The notes under the pieces: generated by a model
Databases searched by the model: none
What the model was told of the DNA's origin: nothing
What the model saw: the letters and a program-made list of their open reading frames with translations, nothing else
Position numbers and translations under genes: made by a program
Assembly: GCA_913055825.1 (NCBI GenBank)
Contig: CAJXKB010000008.1
Span: forward strand, 1 to 58,324
Direction: 5' to 3'
From: an uncultured Bacteroidota bacterium
Lineage (GTDB): Bacteria > Bacteroidota > Bacteroidia > Bacteroidales > F082
Length of the DNA: 58,324 bases
Shown: positions 7,560 through 15,562 of the stretch, piece after piece
How positions within the stretch are numbered: position 1 is the first letter of the stretch
Layout: every line of letters begins with the position of its first letter

Positions 7560-9029
7560 TCAAATAAAACAGGTGTGTTCTTTTCCTTGTTTGTCGTTAT
7601 ACGAAATGGTGGACTGATGTGACTTCAGGTCAACCCACAAGATACTATATCTTTTATCCTGAACCCATTTGAGTTCTAATTCGTAATCTTGCGGTTTGCT
7701 TACCGAAAACGTGCCTTCAAAAGAAGGATGTGTATTCCGGAATTCAATAAGTTTGAGTAATCGTTGCACCACTTCCCGGTGGACAGCCTGCTCAATTTCC
7801 TGCTCGGTATAATTGTGCCGGTTAATTTCGCGCCCTTCGCCTGTTTTGGCAACACCTTGTGTATCATTTTTCCCCGATAACAACCCCACATAATATATTT
7901 GTGGAATCCCGGGCGTAAACAATTGTAAGGCCCTTGCCTGTATATAAGCATCGTCTTCCTGACCCAGGGCACTATAAATTGTACATCTTATTTGATGGAC
8001 ATCAAAACCATCCGGACTTTTATATTTATCGGAATAAACCAGGCTGAGGTTAGCTCCCCGTTCTACACAAACATCTACAACTTTTTTTGCATCTGTGGAG
8101 GATACTAAATCATCCAAATCGGGTTTTACGGGAATCCCGTCATGGCAATCCAGCATGGTAAACTGACTGTGTGGCCTGTCGCGCAAATAATCCACCAGCC
8201 GGTCCGTTTTATGAAACATAACAGCTTCCAGAATGTAGTAGGGCAAAACAAAATCATAAATCCAAAAACCCCGCTCCGAGAGTTTATACTGCGTGTTAAT
8301 TTGGGCATGAACTTCCGGAAGTAGCTCAATACCTAACCCATCGGCAAGGGCCTTGATTTCATCTATGAACCGGTAAATATCGGGCTCCACAAAGAAACAG
8401 CTTGTTCCCATCTTTTTGATGACATAACCCACGGCATCGAGACGCACTATCCGTATATTGTTATGACTGAAAAAGGTAAAAACTTCTTTGAAAAATGTTT
8501 TAGTAATCGCCGCCTGAACATCTAAATCTATTTGTTCCGAGGGGTCTGTTTTGCCAAAGGTGGTCCACAAAGTTTCTTTTTGACCGGTATCCGCAATTGT
8601 AAAAGTGGAATACGGCACTTTTCTGCGCAAAAACATCCGGTCTATGTCCTGCTGTACCGGCTTCCCGTCAGGCCAAAGTTTGTCTAAGGTCAAAAACATG
8701 TCGGCGTATTGCGACTGTCTTCCTTTTTGCAAAAAGTCCTTCACGAAAGGCGATGCTTTTGAAATGTGATTGACCATAAAATCCAACAATAAATCGTATT
8801 CTTTTCCCAAAGCTTTGACATCTTGCCAATTGCCAAAGGCAGGCTCTATTTCAAAATATGAAATAGGTGCAAAGCCTCTGTCTCCCGACGACGTATAAGG
8901 GGGCAACAGGTGAATTCCTCCCTGAAATATTCCATCAAAGTGTTTTTTCAAAACCTTGTGAAGAGTTTTGATATTTCCTCCCATCGAATCAGGATAGGTA
9001 ATCAACTGAACTTTGTTTTTTACCGACAT
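7560..9029 (-). CDS. GH13 subfamily 18 phosphorylase (sucrose or sucrose-6F-phosphate phosphorylase)
   Basis: Cytosolic enzyme that splits an alpha-glucoside with phosphate, giving alpha-glucose 1-phosphate and the acceptor. The 489-residue protein is collinear with sucrose phosphorylases: NKVQLITYPDSMGG at the start, the nucleophile in RLDAVGY (D198), the acid/base in LLPEVH (E239) and the transition-state Asp in LDCHDG (D297). The acceptor loop reads FDVHQI with H345, where the Bifidobacterium and Streptococcus mutans enzymes I remember have Tyr. Arg135-Arg136 lie in the other acceptor loop. As I recall, Arg plus His at these sites marks sucrose-6F-phosphate phosphorylases, so substrate is open. 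It is the last gene of the sugar locus, 11 bases after the transporter. Confidence 0.9.
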   Translation of the reverse strand: MSVKNKVQLITYPDSMGGNIKTLHKVLKKHFDGIFQGGIHLLPPYTSSGDRGFAPISYFEIEPAFGNWQDVKALGKEYDLLLDFMVNHISKASPFVKDFLQKGRQSQYADMFLTLDKLWPDGKPVQQDIDRMFLRRKVPYSTFTIADTGQKETLWTTFGKTDPSEQIDLDVQAAITKTFFKEVFTFFSHNNIRIVRLDAVGYVIKKMGTSCFFVEPDIYRFIDEIKALADGLGIELLPEVHAQINTQYKLSERGFWIYDFVLPYYILEAVMFHKTDRLVDYLRDRPHSQFTMLDCHDGIPVKPDLDDLVSSTDAKKVVDVCVERGANLSLVYSDKYKSPDGFDVHQIRCTIYSALGQEDDAYIQARALQLFTPGIPQIYYVGLLSGKNDTQGVAKTGEGREINRHNYTEQEIEQAVHREVVQRLLKLIEFRNTHPSFEGTFSVSKPQDYELELKWVQDKRYSILWVDLKSHQSTISYNDKQGKEHTCFI

Positions 9030-9040
9030 TTTATTTTGTT

Positions 9041-10555
9041 TTACTCAGTGCTTACTTTACTGTTACTTAAAAACATAGCCAGGGTTCCGGCAATCAAAAA
9101 GAACACTCCGCCAAATAGAATCGCATTGATGGCCGAGTTGTTTAAAAAGTTTTTAATGATTGGTCCAAAAGTTATGGTTTGAATGAGCATAGGAATCACA
9201 ATCATCATGTTGATAATCCCCATGTAAACGCCTCTTCTATCCTGAGGTATTACTTTGGAAGCCATCGAATAAGGAATTCCCATCATCGCTGCCCAACCGA
9301 TACCAAAAAACATCATGGGGATGATGAGTAACCAACGATTGTGGATATAAGGCAAACTCAGCATAGCTAAACCGGTGAAGAATAAACTTGCCGAATATAC
9401 CCGTTTATTGCCATATTTAGCAGCAAAAGGTACCAGTACCAGAGCCACAACCATTGTGGTTGCGTTGTAAACCATATTCAGAAAGGCTGCATGCCCAAGA
9501 GCAGCTCCTTCTGAGATACCCATGCTCTCCACAGACATAGGAGCTACAAACTGCCAATATATAAACAATGCATACCACTGAAAGAAATAAACCACGGAAA
9601 GCTGTCGCAACAATTTGGGCATCTCGGATATAGCATCTGTAGCTTCTATGATAGGACCCAACAAGTCTCCCAGCCTTTTTATCATGCTATTGCGTTTATT
9701 TCTTTTTACCATTTTAAATAGGGCGAACAACCAAACAATGGCTATTATCAACATTAAAACAACCAAATAGTAGTATTCCTTAAGCAGGATAGGAAATAAA
9801 TAGTAGGCTATCAACATGCCCAGCCCCAGCGGTATTGAAAAAATAACCACAACAACGCTTAATATCTGAATTAGTTGATTGGGTTTATCCTTATTAAATT
9901 CCTGAATTTCTTTTATTTCTTTATCTGAAGGAGGTATCTCAGGAGTTTTTAGAACCGACCACAGGATGGTGGTCACAGAAGCAATTGCCCCAATAAAAAA
10001 GGAATAGTACAACCAAGTGGGGATGGTGTCTGCAGCAACCTTAACAGCGACATCCCCAAACCATTTTTGGAATAAAAATATGGAAGCATTGGCCAAAACG
10101 ATGCCGGCACCTACAAAAAGGCTTTGCATCTGGAACCCTATATTATATTGTTCATCAGGAAGTTTGTCTCCCACAAAAGCCCTGTAAGGTTCCATGGCGG
10201 TGTTGTTGGCTGCATCTAAAATCCAAAGCAAAAATACGGCAACCCATAAAGCAGGACTAAAGGGAAATGCAAACAGACAGAGACTGGCCAAAATAGCTCC
10301 GACTAAAAAATAGGGTTTTCGCCTCCCCCATTTAAACGACCACGTTTTATCCGATACGGCACCAATAAGCGGTTGAATAATTAAACCTGTAACTGGCCCT
10401 GCAAGGTTTAATAATGGAAGTTGGGCATTGTGGGCGCCCAAAAATGAAAAGATAGGATTAATGGCTGTTTGCTGCAATCCAAAACTAAATTGGATACCCA
10501 AAAACCCAACATTCATATTCCAGATTTGCCAAAAACTCAAGCGTGGTTTATTCAT
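9041..10555 (-). CDS. MFS/GPH-type sugar transporter (SLC45/sucrose-proton symporter-like)
   Basis: Inner-membrane transporter with about 12 hydrophobic helices in 504 residues. The loop after helix 2 carries DKTWSFKWGRRKPY (near residue 70), the GRR-P signature shared by plant sucrose carriers, animal SLC45 and bacterial maltose/sucrose carriers of the GPH group. A long charged cytoplasmic loop (about 205-230) contains many Lys and Glu residues. It lies between the P-loop kinase and the GH13_18 phosphorylase, 11 bases before the latter, so transport and phosphorolysis of the same sugar are likely coupled. Substrate specificity cannot be read from sequence alone. Confidence 0.85.
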   Translation of the reverse strand: MNKPRLSFWQIWNMNVGFLGIQFSFGLQQTAINPIFSFLGAHNAQLPLLNLAGPVTGLIIQPLIGAVSDKTWSFKWGRRKPYFLVGAILASLCLFAFPFSPALWVAVFLLWILDAANNTAMEPYRAFVGDKLPDEQYNIGFQMQSLFVGAGIVLANASIFLFQKWFGDVAVKVAADTIPTWLYYSFFIGAIASVTTILWSVLKTPEIPPSDKEIKEIQEFNKDKPNQLIQILSVVVVIFSIPLGLGMLIAYYLFPILLKEYYYLVVLMLIIAIVWLFALFKMVKRNKRNSMIKRLGDLLGPIIEATDAISEMPKLLRQLSVVYFFQWYALFIYWQFVAPMSVESMGISEGAALGHAAFLNMVYNATTMVVALVLVPFAAKYGNKRVYSASLFFTGLAMLSLPYIHNRWLLIIPMMFFGIGWAAMMGIPYSMASKVIPQDRRGVYMGIINMMIVIPMLIQTITFGPIIKNFLNNSAINAILFGGVFFLIAGTLAMFLSNSKVSTE

Positions 10556-10668
10556 ATTTTAGTGTTTCTACTTTAATGCCGGGACAACATTACAACAAAA
10601 CGCTGTCAATCCTTATCTTAATGAATACAATTTAAAAAACATTTTCAAGGGTTTAAAAAGTGTATTGT

Positions 10669-11319
10669 TTATTTTATAAAATGAACATTAAAAGATTTAT
10701 CAATTATTATATCGGCCAGCGCTTTATGTTTATGAATAATACTGTGTTCTATTTCTAAAACCTTTTCAATAAACGGATCACTCGCATCGCGGCCTCTTTT
10801 ATGACGGTCTTTATAGGTATCCTTATAGTTACGGTCGATAAAAATAAGTCGGTCAACATTTTTAAGTAAGGAAGTGTAAGTTCCTTCGGCAATACAGACT
10901 TTAATGCCTGTCATATCAAAGACCTCAGTGGTAATCTTGTTTTCAGCGTAGATAGTCAAAGGTTTTTCAATTATTTCCTTCCCTTGCTTCGCCTCTGTTA
11001 GATGCTGGTCTAATAAACTTAGGTTTACTTCATTTGTCCCAACCCGGGCTATATTCTTTCTTCTTTCCTGATCGTTTGACAAAGGAGGCAGGCGGAAGTA
11101 ATCATCCTGCTGAAATATTTTTACTTTTATGCCATTATTTTCCAGCTGCTCGGCAATTGCAGCAGCTGTAATTGATTTCCCGGCTCCGGATTCTCCGGCT
11201 ACAGAAATATTGAAAATACCATTTGTTTCCTTTATTTCATCCAAAAGGGGTTCCACGATATTTCCGGCTGTTTGACGATATTCATCAGTTAAGTTTATAA
11301 TATCTCCCACCATATTCAA
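10669..11319 (-). CDS. Uridine kinase/phosphoribulokinase-like P-loop kinase
   Basis: A 216-residue protein of the uridine kinase/phosphoribulokinase superfamily. It has a Walker A motif GESGAGKS at residues 42-49, an acidic QQDDYFRLPP segment (70-79) matching the base/substrate site of uridine kinases, a Walker B-like VCIAEGTY (141-148) and an Arg-rich lid RHKRGRD (172-178). It lies inside the sugar locus between receptor and transporter, which suggests a substrate such as fructose, another acceptor or the disaccharide itself rather than uridine. That role is inference from context. A second in-frame ATG at 11313 is an equally possible start. Confidence 0.8.
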   Translation of the reverse strand: MNMVGDIINLTDEYRQTAGNIVEPLLDEIKETNGIFNISVAGESGAGKSITAAAIAEQLENNGIKVKIFQQDDYFRLPPLSNDQERRKNIARVGTNEVNLSLLDQHLTEAKQGKEIIEKPLTIYAENKITTEVFDMTGIKVCIAEGTYTSLLKNVDRLIFIDRNYKDTYKDRHKRGRDASDPFIEKVLEIEHSIIHKHKALADIIIDKSFNVHFIK

Positions 11320-11613
11320 GTATATTACTCAATTGGGGTATCTTATCATCACCCGTGGTATTTCTGATCGGGCTGATAAACAGCCGTTTGCAAAAATATT
11401 GTGCATTTTGAGAGTTATGACCGGATATCCCACTTAAAAATTAATAATTTTAAAAGAAGATTTTAATAGTCCATTCCGACATAAACTTGGTATATCAATA
11501 CTATATTACCCGGATGAAACCCGGGTAATATAGTAATGTAACAAAACTATCACATGAGAACCAATCTAATTAAAAGTTATGTTTACAAAAATATTTTAAG
11601 GACATTATCCTTA
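11320..11613. other. 294-base intergenic gap inside the sugar locus
   Basis: No coding frame is supported here. It separates the receptor gene from the kinase-transporter-phosphorylase genes and holds one strong inverted repeat, listed separately. The gap is much longer than the others in the locus and could carry a second promoter or a processing site. Confidence 0.5.
11501..11533 (-). promoter_or_regulatory. 13-bp perfect inverted repeat downstream of the TonB receptor gene
   Basis: Arms 11501-11513 and 11521-11533 are exact reverse complements around a 7-base loop. It lies about 80 bases past the receptor stop, on the way to the kinase gene. There is no T-run on the minus-strand side, so it is a poor classic terminator. 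It may be an mRNA 3'-end stabiliser, a processing site or an operator. Confidence 0.55.
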
Positions 11614-14292
11614 TTAAAAATTATATTTGAATGACAAAACAGCCGAACGGCCTAAAATTGGTCTTGCATAAAAGTACTGGCTGTTGACACTTGTTAAGCC
11701 CGATCTTGGATTTCCTTCGGTCAAACCAATCACATTGAAAAGGTTGTTTCCAGATGCGGTAACGCTAACATGCTTACTGATTGCGAAATCTAGCTGAGCA
11801 TTAATTTGTGAGAATTGAGGAAGTACTTGTTTATTTGCAGGGTTTGTGTAACGTTTCCCGAAATATTGCCATGTAATACTGGCATTAAGACGACCAATTT
11901 GATACGAAGGACGGAAAGTAAAATACAGTTTAGGTAAACGCTGAATAACATGTCCGTTAAAATCAAATGTCTCACCGGCATCAATTACACCGTTACCGTT
12001 TAGATCTTGATGATAAATCCAGTTGTGATACCTCATATCCTGATAAGTTCCGGTAAAGGACAAATTCAAATTTCCAAATTTAGCAACAGCTTCTAATTCC
12101 AAGCCTCCGGCTGAAGTGTTATAAGTCTGCTGGATAGCGGTCAGTACTCCGTTTTGCTGAACAAAATCAGTAAATTTTATGTTATTAAAATAGCTATAAA
12201 ATCCTGTTGCAAAAAGACCAATCTTTGAAGAATTATATTTTAATCCCAATTCATATTGGTAAATTCCTTCAACTCTCGTTGAAGCGGGAAATCCGTTTAC
12301 TGTTGATTCAGTTCCACCAAAGGCATAAGCACGGTCAGCCGGGGCACGGTTTCCTTTACTGGCCCTGGCAAAAATAGCGGTCTGTTTGTTAAATTGATAG
12401 TTAAGACCTACCGACCAGGATAAAACATTGTATTTATAACTAACAGGGATAAAATTCCCGGTCCCATACTGTACACCTTTTTCAGCCGGTGAAATAACGC
12501 CATCATTATTAACATCGTAAGAATAAGTTGCTGTTTTTTCGGTATAGCCATAAGTACTACCTATATCATAACGTAAGCCGGCATTAATAGTTAGCTTGCC
12601 AATATCCCATTCATCATTAAGGTATAAAGCGTTGATGCGGGTTAATGCATAATAATCGCGATATAGTGATCCGTATTGTGAATAACCGTCAGTTGTAAGT
12701 GATTGACCTGTTGCATCATTAACCAGATTCAATTTACGTGTGTTATCTGAGATGTCAACCAGCATATTATGCCACCACCATTTTGCAGCGACCTGATTAG
12801 TTGAAAAATACCAACCACCCGTCAAAGTATTGTTTTTAAATTTCTTGGTTAATTTAAAATCATTGGCAAATTGTTCAAGAGGAAGGTCAACGGCCCACCA
12901 TCCATAAGTTCCGACTAATCCGTTACCATTCAGTGTACTCATGTTGTTAATAGGCACCCCGGCATTGTATCCGTCTGCATAGGCATAATGATAATTTGTC
13001 AGTCCCATATTATTGGCATAATCACTGGCACTAGTTGGGCCATCTACTGCAAAAATGGAGTTAAACTGTTCTTTTATTATAGATTTTTGGAAATTATCTT
13101 TAAAGCTCCAGTTACTACCTAAATTGAAAAAGGCTTCACCCCCGAGAGTAACTACTTTAGGATTCATTCCATCCGCCAGGTTTTCATTTACTTCTGTACC
13201 GGTTGGAGTAGTAGCATGCAGTCTCATTAGATCCAGACTTTTCATTGTACCATAATTGGCATTAAATCCCGGGATAGATGTGGCAGGATCTCCTTGCAAA
13301 GGAATAGGAAGATAAGCAATATTTCTGTCGTTTAACAATTTCCCCCTCAAACGCACATACCCTTTTTTAAAGAGGTAAGTAAGGTTTGCTTTAATTTGAC
13401 CCCCGTTATTTGCTGTGTATCCGGGAGAACGAATACCATCATCAGCCCGATAAAAACCACCAATGTGGTAACGAAGATTTTTCGATATCGGCCCACCGAT
13501 ATCAAAACCCGTTAGTGAATGTAAATAAGTTAACCCTATAGTTTCCGTAAAAGCACCTTTTGTTGTTTCACCACCTGTTTTGGAAATAAAGTTAATTATT
13601 CCACCGGGAGCATTACTTGTTAGGATGGAAGCAGAACCTCCCCTAATGGCCTCAACCCTGCCAACATTCTGGTCAACACGAAGAAAAATATCAGTATTTC
13701 CAAACATAAGGTCTCCATATTCAAAAACAGGTAAACCATCTTCCTGAAGTTGAACATAACGAAGTCCTCCTGAACTGGGAAGTCCGCGTGCAAATACATT
13801 GGCATTACCTTCTCCCCCTGAACTTTCTACATAAAATCCGGGAACTGCTTTAATCAGGTCTGCAGCACTTCGGGGAGCAACTTCTGTAATTTTCTTTGCA
13901 GAAATTGTTGTAATAGCCACACTGGATTGCAATTTGGTTTTGTTGTTTTGGACACCAGTTACAACAACCTGGTCAAGTGAAAGAAGGTCCTCTGCTAAAA
14001 CAAAGTTTTTGGAAATCGTTTCCCCATCTTTAATATTGAATTCATACTCCACAGGTTTGAATCCTGTATAGGAGACAGAAAGCGTGTTTTTTCCAGCCGG
14101 AACCTGAAGTGAATACTTTCCGTTAAAATCGGTAGTTGTTCCCGTTGTAGTTCCTTTAAGTAAAACAGTGGCACCGACAAGCGGTTGCCCTTTTTTTGAA
14201 TTAATCGTACCTTGTAGGGTACCTTGTGCCATTAACCCAACCGAAAAACTCAGGGTTAGAATGACAAGAATAAATCGGACAATCTGTTTCAT
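11614..14292 (-). CDS. TonB-dependent outer-membrane receptor without a SusD partner
   Basis: Active outer-membrane importer energised by TonB. From ATG 14292 the protein has 892 residues: signal peptide (1-22, LMAQ), a CarboxypepD_reg-like domain (about 25-110), a plug domain (about 120-235, with VVVTGVQ near the TonB-box position and APGGIINFISK near its end) and a 22-strand-type barrel ending in YNF. The open frame extends upstream to 14463, but that extension is basic and has no signal. No SusD gene follows, unlike typical polysaccharide loci, so a small soluble substrate is likely. It is divergent from a LacI regulator, as in the Xanthomonas sux sucrose locus. Confidence 0.92.
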   Translation of the reverse strand: MKQIVRFILVILTLSFSVGLMAQGTLQGTINSKKGQPLVGATVLLKGTTTGTTTDFNGKYSLQVPAGKNTLSVSYTGFKPVEYEFNIKDGETISKNFVLAEDLLSLDQVVVTGVQNNKTKLQSSVAITTISAKKITEVAPRSAADLIKAVPGFYVESSGGEGNANVFARGLPSSGGLRYVQLQEDGLPVFEYGDLMFGNTDIFLRVDQNVGRVEAIRGGSASILTSNAPGGIINFISKTGGETTKGAFTETIGLTYLHSLTGFDIGGPISKNLRYHIGGFYRADDGIRSPGYTANNGGQIKANLTYLFKKGYVRLRGKLLNDRNIAYLPIPLQGDPATSIPGFNANYGTMKSLDLMRLHATTPTGTEVNENLADGMNPKVVTLGGEAFFNLGSNWSFKDNFQKSIIKEQFNSIFAVDGPTSASDYANNMGLTNYHYAYADGYNAGVPINNMSTLNGNGLVGTYGWWAVDLPLEQFANDFKLTKKFKNNTLTGGWYFSTNQVAAKWWWHNMLVDISDNTRKLNLVNDATGQSLTTDGYSQYGSLYRDYYALTRINALYLNDEWDIGKLTINAGLRYDIGSTYGYTEKTATYSYDVNNDGVISPAEKGVQYGTGNFIPVSYKYNVLSWSVGLNYQFNKQTAIFARASKGNRAPADRAYAFGGTESTVNGFPASTRVEGIYQYELGLKYNSSKIGLFATGFYSYFNNIKFTDFVQQNGVLTAIQQTYNTSAGGLELEAVAKFGNLNLSFTGTYQDMRYHNWIYHQDLNGNGVIDAGETFDFNGHVIQRLPKLYFTFRPSYQIGRLNASITWQYFGKRYTNPANKQVLPQFSQINAQLDFAISKHVSVTASGNNLFNVIGLTEGNPRSGLTSVNSQYFYARPILGRSAVLSFKYNF

Positions 14293-14328
14293 AGCAATTA
14301 TTTTTTGATGAATAATATTAATTAAACC

Positions 14329-14360
14329 CAAAAATAAATCATTAATTGCCTGTAAAACAA
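14329..14360 (-). promoter_or_regulatory. Putative Bacteroidota promoter for the TonB receptor gene
   Basis: On the minus strand a -7 box TATTTTTG (14336-14329) is preceded, after 21 bases, by TTG (14360-14358) in the -33 position. Transcription would start about 30 bases before the receptor ATG. The call is based on the TAnnTTTG consensus only. Confidence 0.45.
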
Positions 14361-14366
14361 TAGAAA

Positions 14367-14403
14367 GCGTACGCGTTTTTAACGCACACCTGAACGCACA
14401 CCT
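14367..14403. promoter_or_regulatory. Candidate LacI-family operator cluster
   Basis: Directly upstream of the putative receptor -33 box lie three elements: a perfect palindrome GCGTACGC (14367-14374), an overlapping dyad GCGTT-TTT-AACGC (14373-14385) and two copies of AACGCACACCT at 14381-14391 and 14393-14403. CG-centred palindromes are typical of LacI-family operators. The cluster sits between the divergent receptor and LacI genes, so it is the natural binding site for that regulator. Confidence 0.55.
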
Positions 14404-14515
14404 TAATTGTTGATAAGTAATTAGTATTGTTAATAAAAAATTATTCGCCTTATTTGTTGTCAAAGATTTTAGTAGTAGAAGTAATTTCTATATTTTAGCC
14501 TATAAATACCAAAGA

Positions 14516-15562
14516 ATGCCTCGAAAAAGAAGGAATAGGGTTACCTTAAAAGATATTGCCAATAAAATAGGTGTGTCGCATACAACTGTTTCAAGAGCGT
14601 TGCGTAATCATCCGGACATCAGTCCTGAAAGAAAAGAGCAGATTCGAAATCTGGCTCAACGCATGCATTACAACCCAAATGCTTTTGCACTTAGTTTGCG
14701 CAATTCTTACAGTAAAATAATAGGGTTGATTATACCGGAAATCACTTTGTATTCGTTCCCTTCTATGGTTAAAGGTATTTCTGAATATTGTTATAAGTAT
14801 GGCTACAACGTCATTGTCCTCTCATCCAATGAGTCTTATGAAAGAGAGGTGCAAAATACTGAGCTCATGTTGTCCAGTCAGGTTGACGGATTATTGGTGG
14901 CCATTTCAAAAGAGACACAAAAATATGATCATTTTGAACGCCTAGAGGAAGATGGGATTCCTGTTGTTTTTCTAGATCGTGTTTGTAAAGACTATGGAAA
15001 ATCAAAAGTAATTATAGATGGTAAAAGAGCGGCATATTCAGCTACTAAACATCTGATTACAACCGGACGCAAAAAATTAACTTATTTCGGGGGGAATCCT
15101 TCCTTAGATATTACCAAACAGCGTCTTGATGGTTTTAAGAAAGCACTTGATGAAAGAAATATGCAGGAACATTCTATAATTTTTGCAGATGATGCCGAAG
15201 AAGCCAGGGCTAAGACTTTTGATGTTTTTGCAACCAAGGATGTACCTGATGGCATTATGAGTATCAGCGACGAGGTACTAACAGGGATTATCCCGGCCTT
15301 GCAAGAACTTAAAATAAGTATTCCTGAGCAGGTGGGAATTATCAGTTTTAGTGACGGGCCGATTTCTCTAATGTATAAACCGGCAATTTCTATTATTCAT
15401 CACTCGCTTTCACGGGTTGGCCAGGTGGCAGCCGATATATTGATACGTCGTATTGAAAATCCGGAGGAAAACCATAATCAAATCCACATTATTGATACTA
15501 ACCTTATTGTCCGGGGTAGTACCATGAATAACACGGCCAATAATATTCAGGCCGGTTCATAG
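14516..15562 (+). CDS. LacI-family transcriptional regulator
   Basis: A 348-residue DNA-binding regulator. The N-terminal helix-turn-helix is VTLKDIANKIGVSHTTVSRA (residues 9-28), followed by the hinge helix region (about 50-62) and a periplasmic-binding-protein-like sugar domain (about 65-335, including IGLIIPEI and VGIISFSD). It is divergent from the TonB receptor gene, with a CG-centred palindrome in the intergenic space, so it likely controls the receptor-kinase-transporter-phosphorylase genes in response to the sugar or a product. Whether it represses or activates is not visible. Confidence 0.93.
   Translation: MPRKRRNRVTLKDIANKIGVSHTTVSRALRNHPDISPERKEQIRNLAQRMHYNPNAFALSLRNSYSKIIGLIIPEITLYSFPSMVKGISEYCYKYGYNVIVLSSNESYEREVQNTELMLSSQVDGLLVAISKETQKYDHFERLEEDGIPVVFLDRVCKDYGKSKVIIDGKRAAYSATKHLITTGRKKLTYFGGNPSLDITKQRLDGFKKALDERNMQEHSIIFADDAEEARAKTFDVFATKDVPDGIMSISDEVLTGIIPALQELKISIPEQVGIISFSDGPISLMYKPAISIIHHSLSRVGQVAADILIRRIENPEENHNQIHIIDTNLIVRGSTMNNTANNIQAGS

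Follow-up and report, generated by a model that had tools for sequence, protein, structure and literature searches.

Where does sucrose 6F-phosphate (S6FP) come from, a sugar whose natural origin is an open question? A gene cluster at positions 7560-15562 of the DNA analysed here suggests a possible source. The window, as we call the whole stretch of 58,324 nt, is contig 8 of the 3.1-Mb, 145-contig assembly of an uncultured Bacteroidota bacterium (GCA_913055825.1; its genome, G000, is 97% complete). In this cluster, a phosphorylase of the type that cleaves S6FP accompanies a small kinase that might produce S6FP from sucrose, and we read the whole, from its sequence, as a LacI-controlled, kinase-first sucrose scavenging operon, giving the full route a probability of about 0.65. 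The five genes are the following.

7560-9029, minus strand: GH13_18 phosphorylase (489 amino acids) of the type of TtSPP, the enzyme of Thermoanaerobacterium thermosaccharolyticum; predicted S6FP phosphorylase
9041-10555, minus strand: GPH/SLC45-like MFS transporter (504 amino acids); predicted cation/sucrose symporter
10669-11319, minus strand: open reading frame (ORF) of a PRK/uridine-kinase-like P-loop kinase (PF00485), likely ATG start at 11313; predicted ATP-dependent sucrose 6F-kinase
11614-14463, minus strand: ORF of a TonB-dependent receptor with a CarboxypepD_reg domain (Pfam, NCBIfam), likely start at 14292; predicted sucrose receptor
14516-15562, plus strand: ORF of a divergent LacI-family regulator (Pfam, NCBIfam)

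An earlier, sequence-only reading had described a LacI regulator, a TonB receptor lacking SusD, a P-loop kinase, a GPH/SLC45-like transporter and a GH13_18 phosphorylase; all five ORFs are present where it had placed them, and Pfam and NCBIfam agree on the family of each. A Pfam scan of the five proteins found no SusD domain, and the receptor-kinase and receptor-LacI gaps contain no ORF of at least 100 amino acids. The likely receptor start coincides with the signal-peptide-like MKQIVRF. Because the four minus-strand genes lie head to tail, with gaps of 294, 113 and 11 bp between the listed ORFs, receptor, kinase, transporter and phosphorylase likely form an operon.

The phosphorylase is, judging from its sequence, very probably an S6FP phosphorylase (SPP, EC 2.4.1.329) of the TtSPP type and not a sucrose phosphorylase (SP, EC 2.4.1.7), because TtSPP is its best solved match (6s9v, 706.6 bits across residues 1-484 of the query; next chain, 437.8 bits), its loop A has the TtSPP signature and nine functional residues are kept. 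It scores 510.5 bits with TIGR03852 sucrose_gtfA (cut-off 334.4). Loop A reads GFDVHQ in TtSPP and N(L/V)D(I/L/V)YQ in SP (PMC7178133). The window protein reads DGFDVHQ, ending in H345 and Q346, and lacks the SP motif, which is present at the loci L136 and L137. The S6FP ligands of TtSPP (Arg134, Arg195, Tyr201, His344, Gln345 and Arg399) and its catalytic residues (Asp197, Glu238 and Asp296; PMC6720575) are retained in 9 of 9 positions at an offset of +1 (R135, R196, Y202, H345, Q346, R400, D198, E239 and D297). Of the marks of glucosylglycerate phosphorylase (GGaP), (T/S)ETN and a Glu in loop A, neither occurs in the window protein, which has PEVH and HQ; these motifs ruled out a glycerate kinase/glucosylglycerate interpretation that we had considered first. 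The second GH13_18 gene of the same genome (contig 44) does carry GGaP marks (ETN and YE). A search of viral contigs with the phosphorylase gave three pattern matches and no relative, and none of the 344 records from a plasmid search reached 60% identity.

The kinase scores 33.7 bits with the Pfam PRK model (PF00485, cut-off 22) and is a stand-alone protein of about 215 amino acids that lacks a GH36 alpha-galactosidase fusion. GESGxGKS, DDYF and EGTY are conserved in all six rows of its alignment, and its closest relative (74% identity) is found at locus L064. No close relative was detected among solved structures (best E 3.7e-5), and an AlphaFold model built on an alignment of two rows was set aside for its low quality (mean pLDDT 52). 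When plasmids were searched by tblastn, two records matched, one of them the Agathobacter rectalis megaplasmid (L085). There, residues 10-213 of the query align at 30.1% identity (E 2e-16) with the kinase domain at the C-terminus of an alpha-galactosidase, whose gene is followed by one annotated as sucrose phosphorylase and carrying the KxxYYQ motif; when this A. rectalis domain was in turn searched against plasmids, it matched only itself. We take the A. rectalis protein as the E. rectale counterpart of the Ruminococcus gnavus protein AgaSK (PMC7688924), and all comparisons with AgaSK were made with it rather than with the R. gnavus sequence. The isolated kinase domain of RgAgaSK phosphorylates sucrose with a Km of 1.0 mM and was modelled on uridine kinase, and a separate, unfused kinase is reported in Clostridium sp. 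L2-50 (PMC7688924). A hidden Markov model (HMM) built from 14 kinases of sucrose loci, without AgaSK, gave the A. rectalis domain 106 bits, versus 61 and 57 bits with the HMMs of two sister groups, one GH65-linked (from 10 rows), the other Chlorobiaceae-like (from 7). By these comparisons the window kinase is related, distantly, to the AgaSK-type kinase domain.

Across 38 loci, 38 GH13_18 proteins were sorted into types according to published motifs. Matches were accepted at E values up to 1e-40, no more than two from any one locus, and rows that were both unclassified and below 150 bits were dropped; the genomes G022, G282, G305, G336, G368 and G380 have GH13_18-type matches outside this count. 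PfkB and PRK kinases nearby were sought with purpose-built HMMs, so that remote kinases could be missed. A kinase lies within 6 kb of the SPP gene in 10 of 10 loci when both SPP clades are taken together, five times of the window-kinase family and five times PfkB. The window-kinase family accompanies SPP-Tt in 3/3 loci and SPP-Ic/Rg in 2/7, the other five of the latter having PfkB (L087-L091). It is found at neither of the two SP-type loci, one of which has PfkB (L137), and at the 26 GGaP-type loci neither kinase occurs within 6 kb. Order-wide, the Tt-type enzyme is present in three of 242 genomes, the window included, and each time with the kinase. The loci L111, L114 and L115 were first seen via the kinase and then recovered by phosphorylase searches, whereas L085 is biased in this count because it entered through the kinase.

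Two further genomes of the order (L114 and L115) also combine receptor, kinase and a phosphorylase of the same type, which argues that their linkage is more than chance. The exact five-gene set, which the sequence-only reading had proposed to look for across relatives, was not found again: at L114 the locus runs to the contig end, and at L115 the MFS protein is a different one and no LacI match lies alongside.

From the kinase side, we sampled 395 phylum, 395 class and 60 order genomes as well as named records, and placed 15 kinases, AgaSK included. Five are near an SPP gene (the window, where the transporter gene intervenes, L111, L114, L115 and L085), and eight have a GH100-like protein as neighbour or, at L109, as fusion partner (L064-L068, L086, L109 and L110). 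The assignment as GH100-like, GH100 being the Pfam family of alkaline and neutral invertases, is based on BLAST for three of these proteins and, for the other five, on PF12899 matches that score 34-63 bits and cover part of the profile. The kinase of L112 adjoins a GT4 protein with a partial sucrose-synthase domain, which L064 has as well, and that of L113 lies on a 3.4-kb contig that carries no GH100-like, SPP or GT4 gene. The recurring core is the kinase together with a sucrose- or S6FP-splitting enzyme. GPH transporters are found at the kinase loci L066, L067, L086 and L109-L111, and sodium:solute symporters at L065, L068 and L064, the last truncated by the contig end. At L109 (9813-11597), the GH100-like protein and the kinase are joined into one polypeptide of 595 amino acids, much as AgaSK joins GH36 to its kinase, and at L064 (942-5352) the kinase gene stands between the GH100-like gene and that of the GT4 protein, which perhaps splits sucrose or S6FP in a nucleoside-diphosphate-dependent manner, followed by a DUF4922 protein.

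Other supplies of S6FP were considered for G000. The model for enzyme I of the phosphotransferase system (PTS) gave only 87 and 31 bits, in one 923-amino-acid frame (cut-off 341.7), and the S6PP phosphatase had no match in this 97%-complete genome, sucrose-phosphate synthase not having been searched for. Because neither an enzyme I over the cut-off nor an S6PP match was found, the PTS and the cell's own synthesis are both unlikely sources as far as the genome sequence goes, and we set both aside. Among the 17 genomes given, enzyme I exceeded the cut-off in two (G372 and G254), and S6PP matches over that model's low cut-off were found in eight, the best at 49 bits. A genome lacking an enzyme I over the cut-off that pairs SPP with a stand-alone, AgaSK-related kinase predicts the missing S6FP-making step.

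The receptor consists of CarbopepD_reg_2, Plug and beta-barrel domains. It shares 33-39% identity (377-558 bits) with nine receptors of SPP, SP and GH100 loci and 24-28% identity (26-278 bits) with four receptors of GGaP loci. In the receptor tree, the L114 receptor, from a locus with SPP and a window-type kinase, is sister to that of L137, with an SP motif and PfkB (support 100/99). If L137 takes up sucrose, as its SP motif indicates, the sugar imported at L114 is probably the same, and S6FP would then have to be formed within the cell by a kinase. The transporter matches MFS_1 (111.8 bits) and MFS_2 and, partially, TIGR01301 GPH_sucrose (72.9 bits, far below the cut-off of 511); homologues occur at L066, L067, L086, L087-L091 and L109-L111.

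Beyond the gene order, phosphorylase type, kinase family and recurring linkage, which are read from the sequence, we infer the sugar, the direction of import, the position of the phosphate and the regulation as follows. Sucrose would cross the outer membrane via the TonB receptor and the inner membrane via the GPH symporter. In the key step, the PRK-type kinase would use ATP to phosphorylate sucrose at the 6-position of its fructose, yielding S6FP. The GH13_18 enzyme, given its likeness to TtSPP and the conservation of all ligand residues, would then phosphorolyse S6FP to glucose 1-phosphate and fructose 6-phosphate, so that both hexoses would reach the hexose-phosphate level at the cost of one ATP. 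LacI would presumably repress the operon from a palindrome at 14364-14378 and be released by sucrose or a derivative.

Several observations weigh against this kinase-first route. S6PP matches, weak ones of 35 and 38 bits but over the low cut-off, occur in G739 and G449, which also carry SPP, and fructokinases could be among the products of the three PfkB genes of G000 itself. Five loci pair SPP with PfkB instead of the window-type kinase. The GH100-like partners, as judged from sequence, could split either sucrose or S6FP. The window receptor is not well supported within the sucrose receptor clade, the ten sucrose-type receptors being held together at 36/0. The kinship with AgaSK is remote: the 14-kinase HMM gives GH65-linked and Chlorobiaceae-like kinases 129-165 bits (87 for a short row), above the 106 bits of AgaSK, and two uridine-kinase-like proteins reach 68 and 53 bits. 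In a kinase tree of 35 rows, with the two uridine-kinase-like proteins as outgroup and with the G775 kinase fragment and the other, weaker uridine-kinase-like matches left out, a branch supported at 100/97 has the sucrose-locus kinases, AgaSK and this outgroup on one side and the 18 rows of GH65-linked and Chlorobiaceae-like kinases on the other; AgaSK forms a long branch of uncertain place and is not the nearest kin. To these points comes that TtSPP also uses sucrose (KM 76 mM, versus 13 mM for S6FP; PMC7178133), and a reading of the kinase as a fructokinase therefore remains a rival. In that case the phosphorylase would act mainly on sucrose, releasing glucose 1-phosphate and free fructose, and the kinase would be a fructokinase of unusual fold, placed downstream of phosphorolysis in what is the normal arrangement, as at L137 with its SP and PfkB. 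We regard this as unlikely, since loci of both SPP clades carry the window-kinase family and neither SP locus does, the two enzymes tested from the KxxYYQ clade of SPP are strictly S6FP-specific (PMC6720575, PMC7178133), the characterised kinase relative acts on sucrose (PMC7688924), and all ligands of the S6FP phosphate are conserved in the window phosphorylase.

The phosphate position published for AgaSK also counts against the kinase-first route. AgaSK is reported to phosphorylate C6 of the glucose unit of sucrose, its product having been "identified as S6P by mass spectrometric analysis", while RgSPP, whose gene adjoins that of AgaSK, acts on the 6F-phosphate (PMC7688924); both findings are repeated in PMC10112845. 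If the window kinase likewise made sucrose 6-glucose-phosphate, the phosphorylase would depend on a separate pool of S6FP. The conserved subsite -1 residues, which accommodate an unmodified glucosyl unit (roles from PMC6720575), the lack of an enzyme I over the cut-off and of an S6PP match as signs of another S6FP supply, and the pairing of the kinase with two SPP clades make this highly improbable. A different alpha-glucoside, with its acceptor phosphorylated, might also be the substrate in place of sucrose, considering that GH13_18 spans several specificities and that TtSPP accepts many acceptors (PMC6720575); we consider it improbable given the signature motif of SPP and not GGaP, the GH100-like (invertase family) neighbours in relatives and the relatedness of the window receptor to that of an SP-motif locus. 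More tentatively, and with some doubt, the kinase could be a true sucrose 6F-kinase and the missing source of S6FP, the 6-glucose assignment of AgaSK being wrong, within a wider, unnamed family of disaccharide kinases with interchangeable splitting partners: two GH13_18 clades, GH100-like proteins and perhaps the sucrose-synthase-like GT4, as well as, in a sister clade, a HAD-GH65 fusion whose substrate would be the phosphate of another glucose disaccharide.

With the kinase-first route preferred, the sequence-only reading changes in part. The sequence of the phosphorylase, its signature loop and its phosphate-binding residues point to S6FP, not to a main activity on sucrose itself. The kinase, which it had found unexpected, is no oddity, being related to the AgaSK-type kinase domain and recurring in other sucrose-type loci; that it handles the acceptor or the disaccharide is supported, the evidence favouring the disaccharide. 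The likeness to the Xanthomonas sux locus (suxA, suxB, suxC and suxR; PMC1790865) also stands at the level of gene families, with a TonB receptor, an inner-membrane transporter, a LacI-type repressor and an intracellular GH13 enzyme in common, transporter and receptor sequences not having been compared. However, Xanthomonas has an amylosucrase where the window has phosphorolysis by an S6FP-type GH13_18 enzyme, together with a kinase.

The R. gnavus Rgaga1 locus likewise places a PRK/uridine-kinase-like sucrose kinase beside an S6FP-specific GH13_18 phosphorylase (RgSPP), a gene relationship that Tauzin et al. had noted before (PMC6521584). The R. gnavus locus has its kinase fused to GH36, relies on an ABC transporter for uptake and carries a phosphorylase from the KxxYYQ clade (compared via A. 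rectalis L085), whereas the window combines a stand-alone kinase, a TonB receptor, a GPH symporter and a TtSPP-type phosphorylase. T. thermosaccharolyticum has the same phosphorylase type and GFDVHQ signature and provides the best solved match; its operon, however, includes a PTS and a putative phosphofructokinase (PMC7178133), and G000 has no enzyme I over the cut-off. From a SusCD-type polysaccharide utilization locus, the cluster differs by the absence of a SusD partner. In the parts of the open-licence literature that were available, we found no report of this arrangement in Bacteroidota. The kinase-SPP concept is already in print for gut Firmicutes, and the Bacteroidota arrangement is a variant of it. 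Its simple two-protein form makes the origin of S6FP testable, and where automatic annotation puts "sucrose phosphorylase" next to "uridine kinase", another sucrose pathway may be concealed.

Two candidate regulatory elements lie between the genes.

14364-14378, no strand assigned: palindromic candidate LacI operator AAAGCGTACGCGTTT with overlapping arms, in the divergent promoter region
11496-11538, minus strand: strong stem-loop that lacks a U-run, in the receptor-kinase gap; possible mRNA stabiliser or processing site

The palindrome is the sole exact copy in the genome, and five other matches have two mismatches. An operator regulon was rejected: because the control with the reversed pattern matched more often (12 matches, versus 6 with up to two mismatches), we claim none. 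The arms of the stem-loop are 94% complementary, and an 81-nt stretch with this stem-loop and a second small hairpin folds at -29.5 kcal/mol (z -5.99).

Some further kinase loci were observed alongside. At L087-L091 (family label f7, which we guess to be Flavobacteriaceae), a KxxYYQ S6FP-type phosphorylase is accompanied by PfkB and a GPH transporter; the PfkB protein, scanned with Pfam at three of these loci, may represent another kinase, unrelated to the first, that makes S6FP. The sister clade of the window kinase adjoins a HAD-GH65 fusion in 7 of the 10 loci L116-L125 (L116, L118, L120-L123 and L125), L125 being on contig 76 of the same genome as the window (8706-12586); this GH65-linked kinase is perhaps specific for another glucose disaccharide, whose phosphate GH65 would split, or a glucokinase. 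The genomes labelled f19 (L009-L031 and L069-L081; Chlorobiaceae is a guess) have one or two relatives of the GH65-linked clade each, and one of these (L069) lies beside the gene of a three-domain thiamine pyrophosphate enzyme, which we take to be MenD-like.

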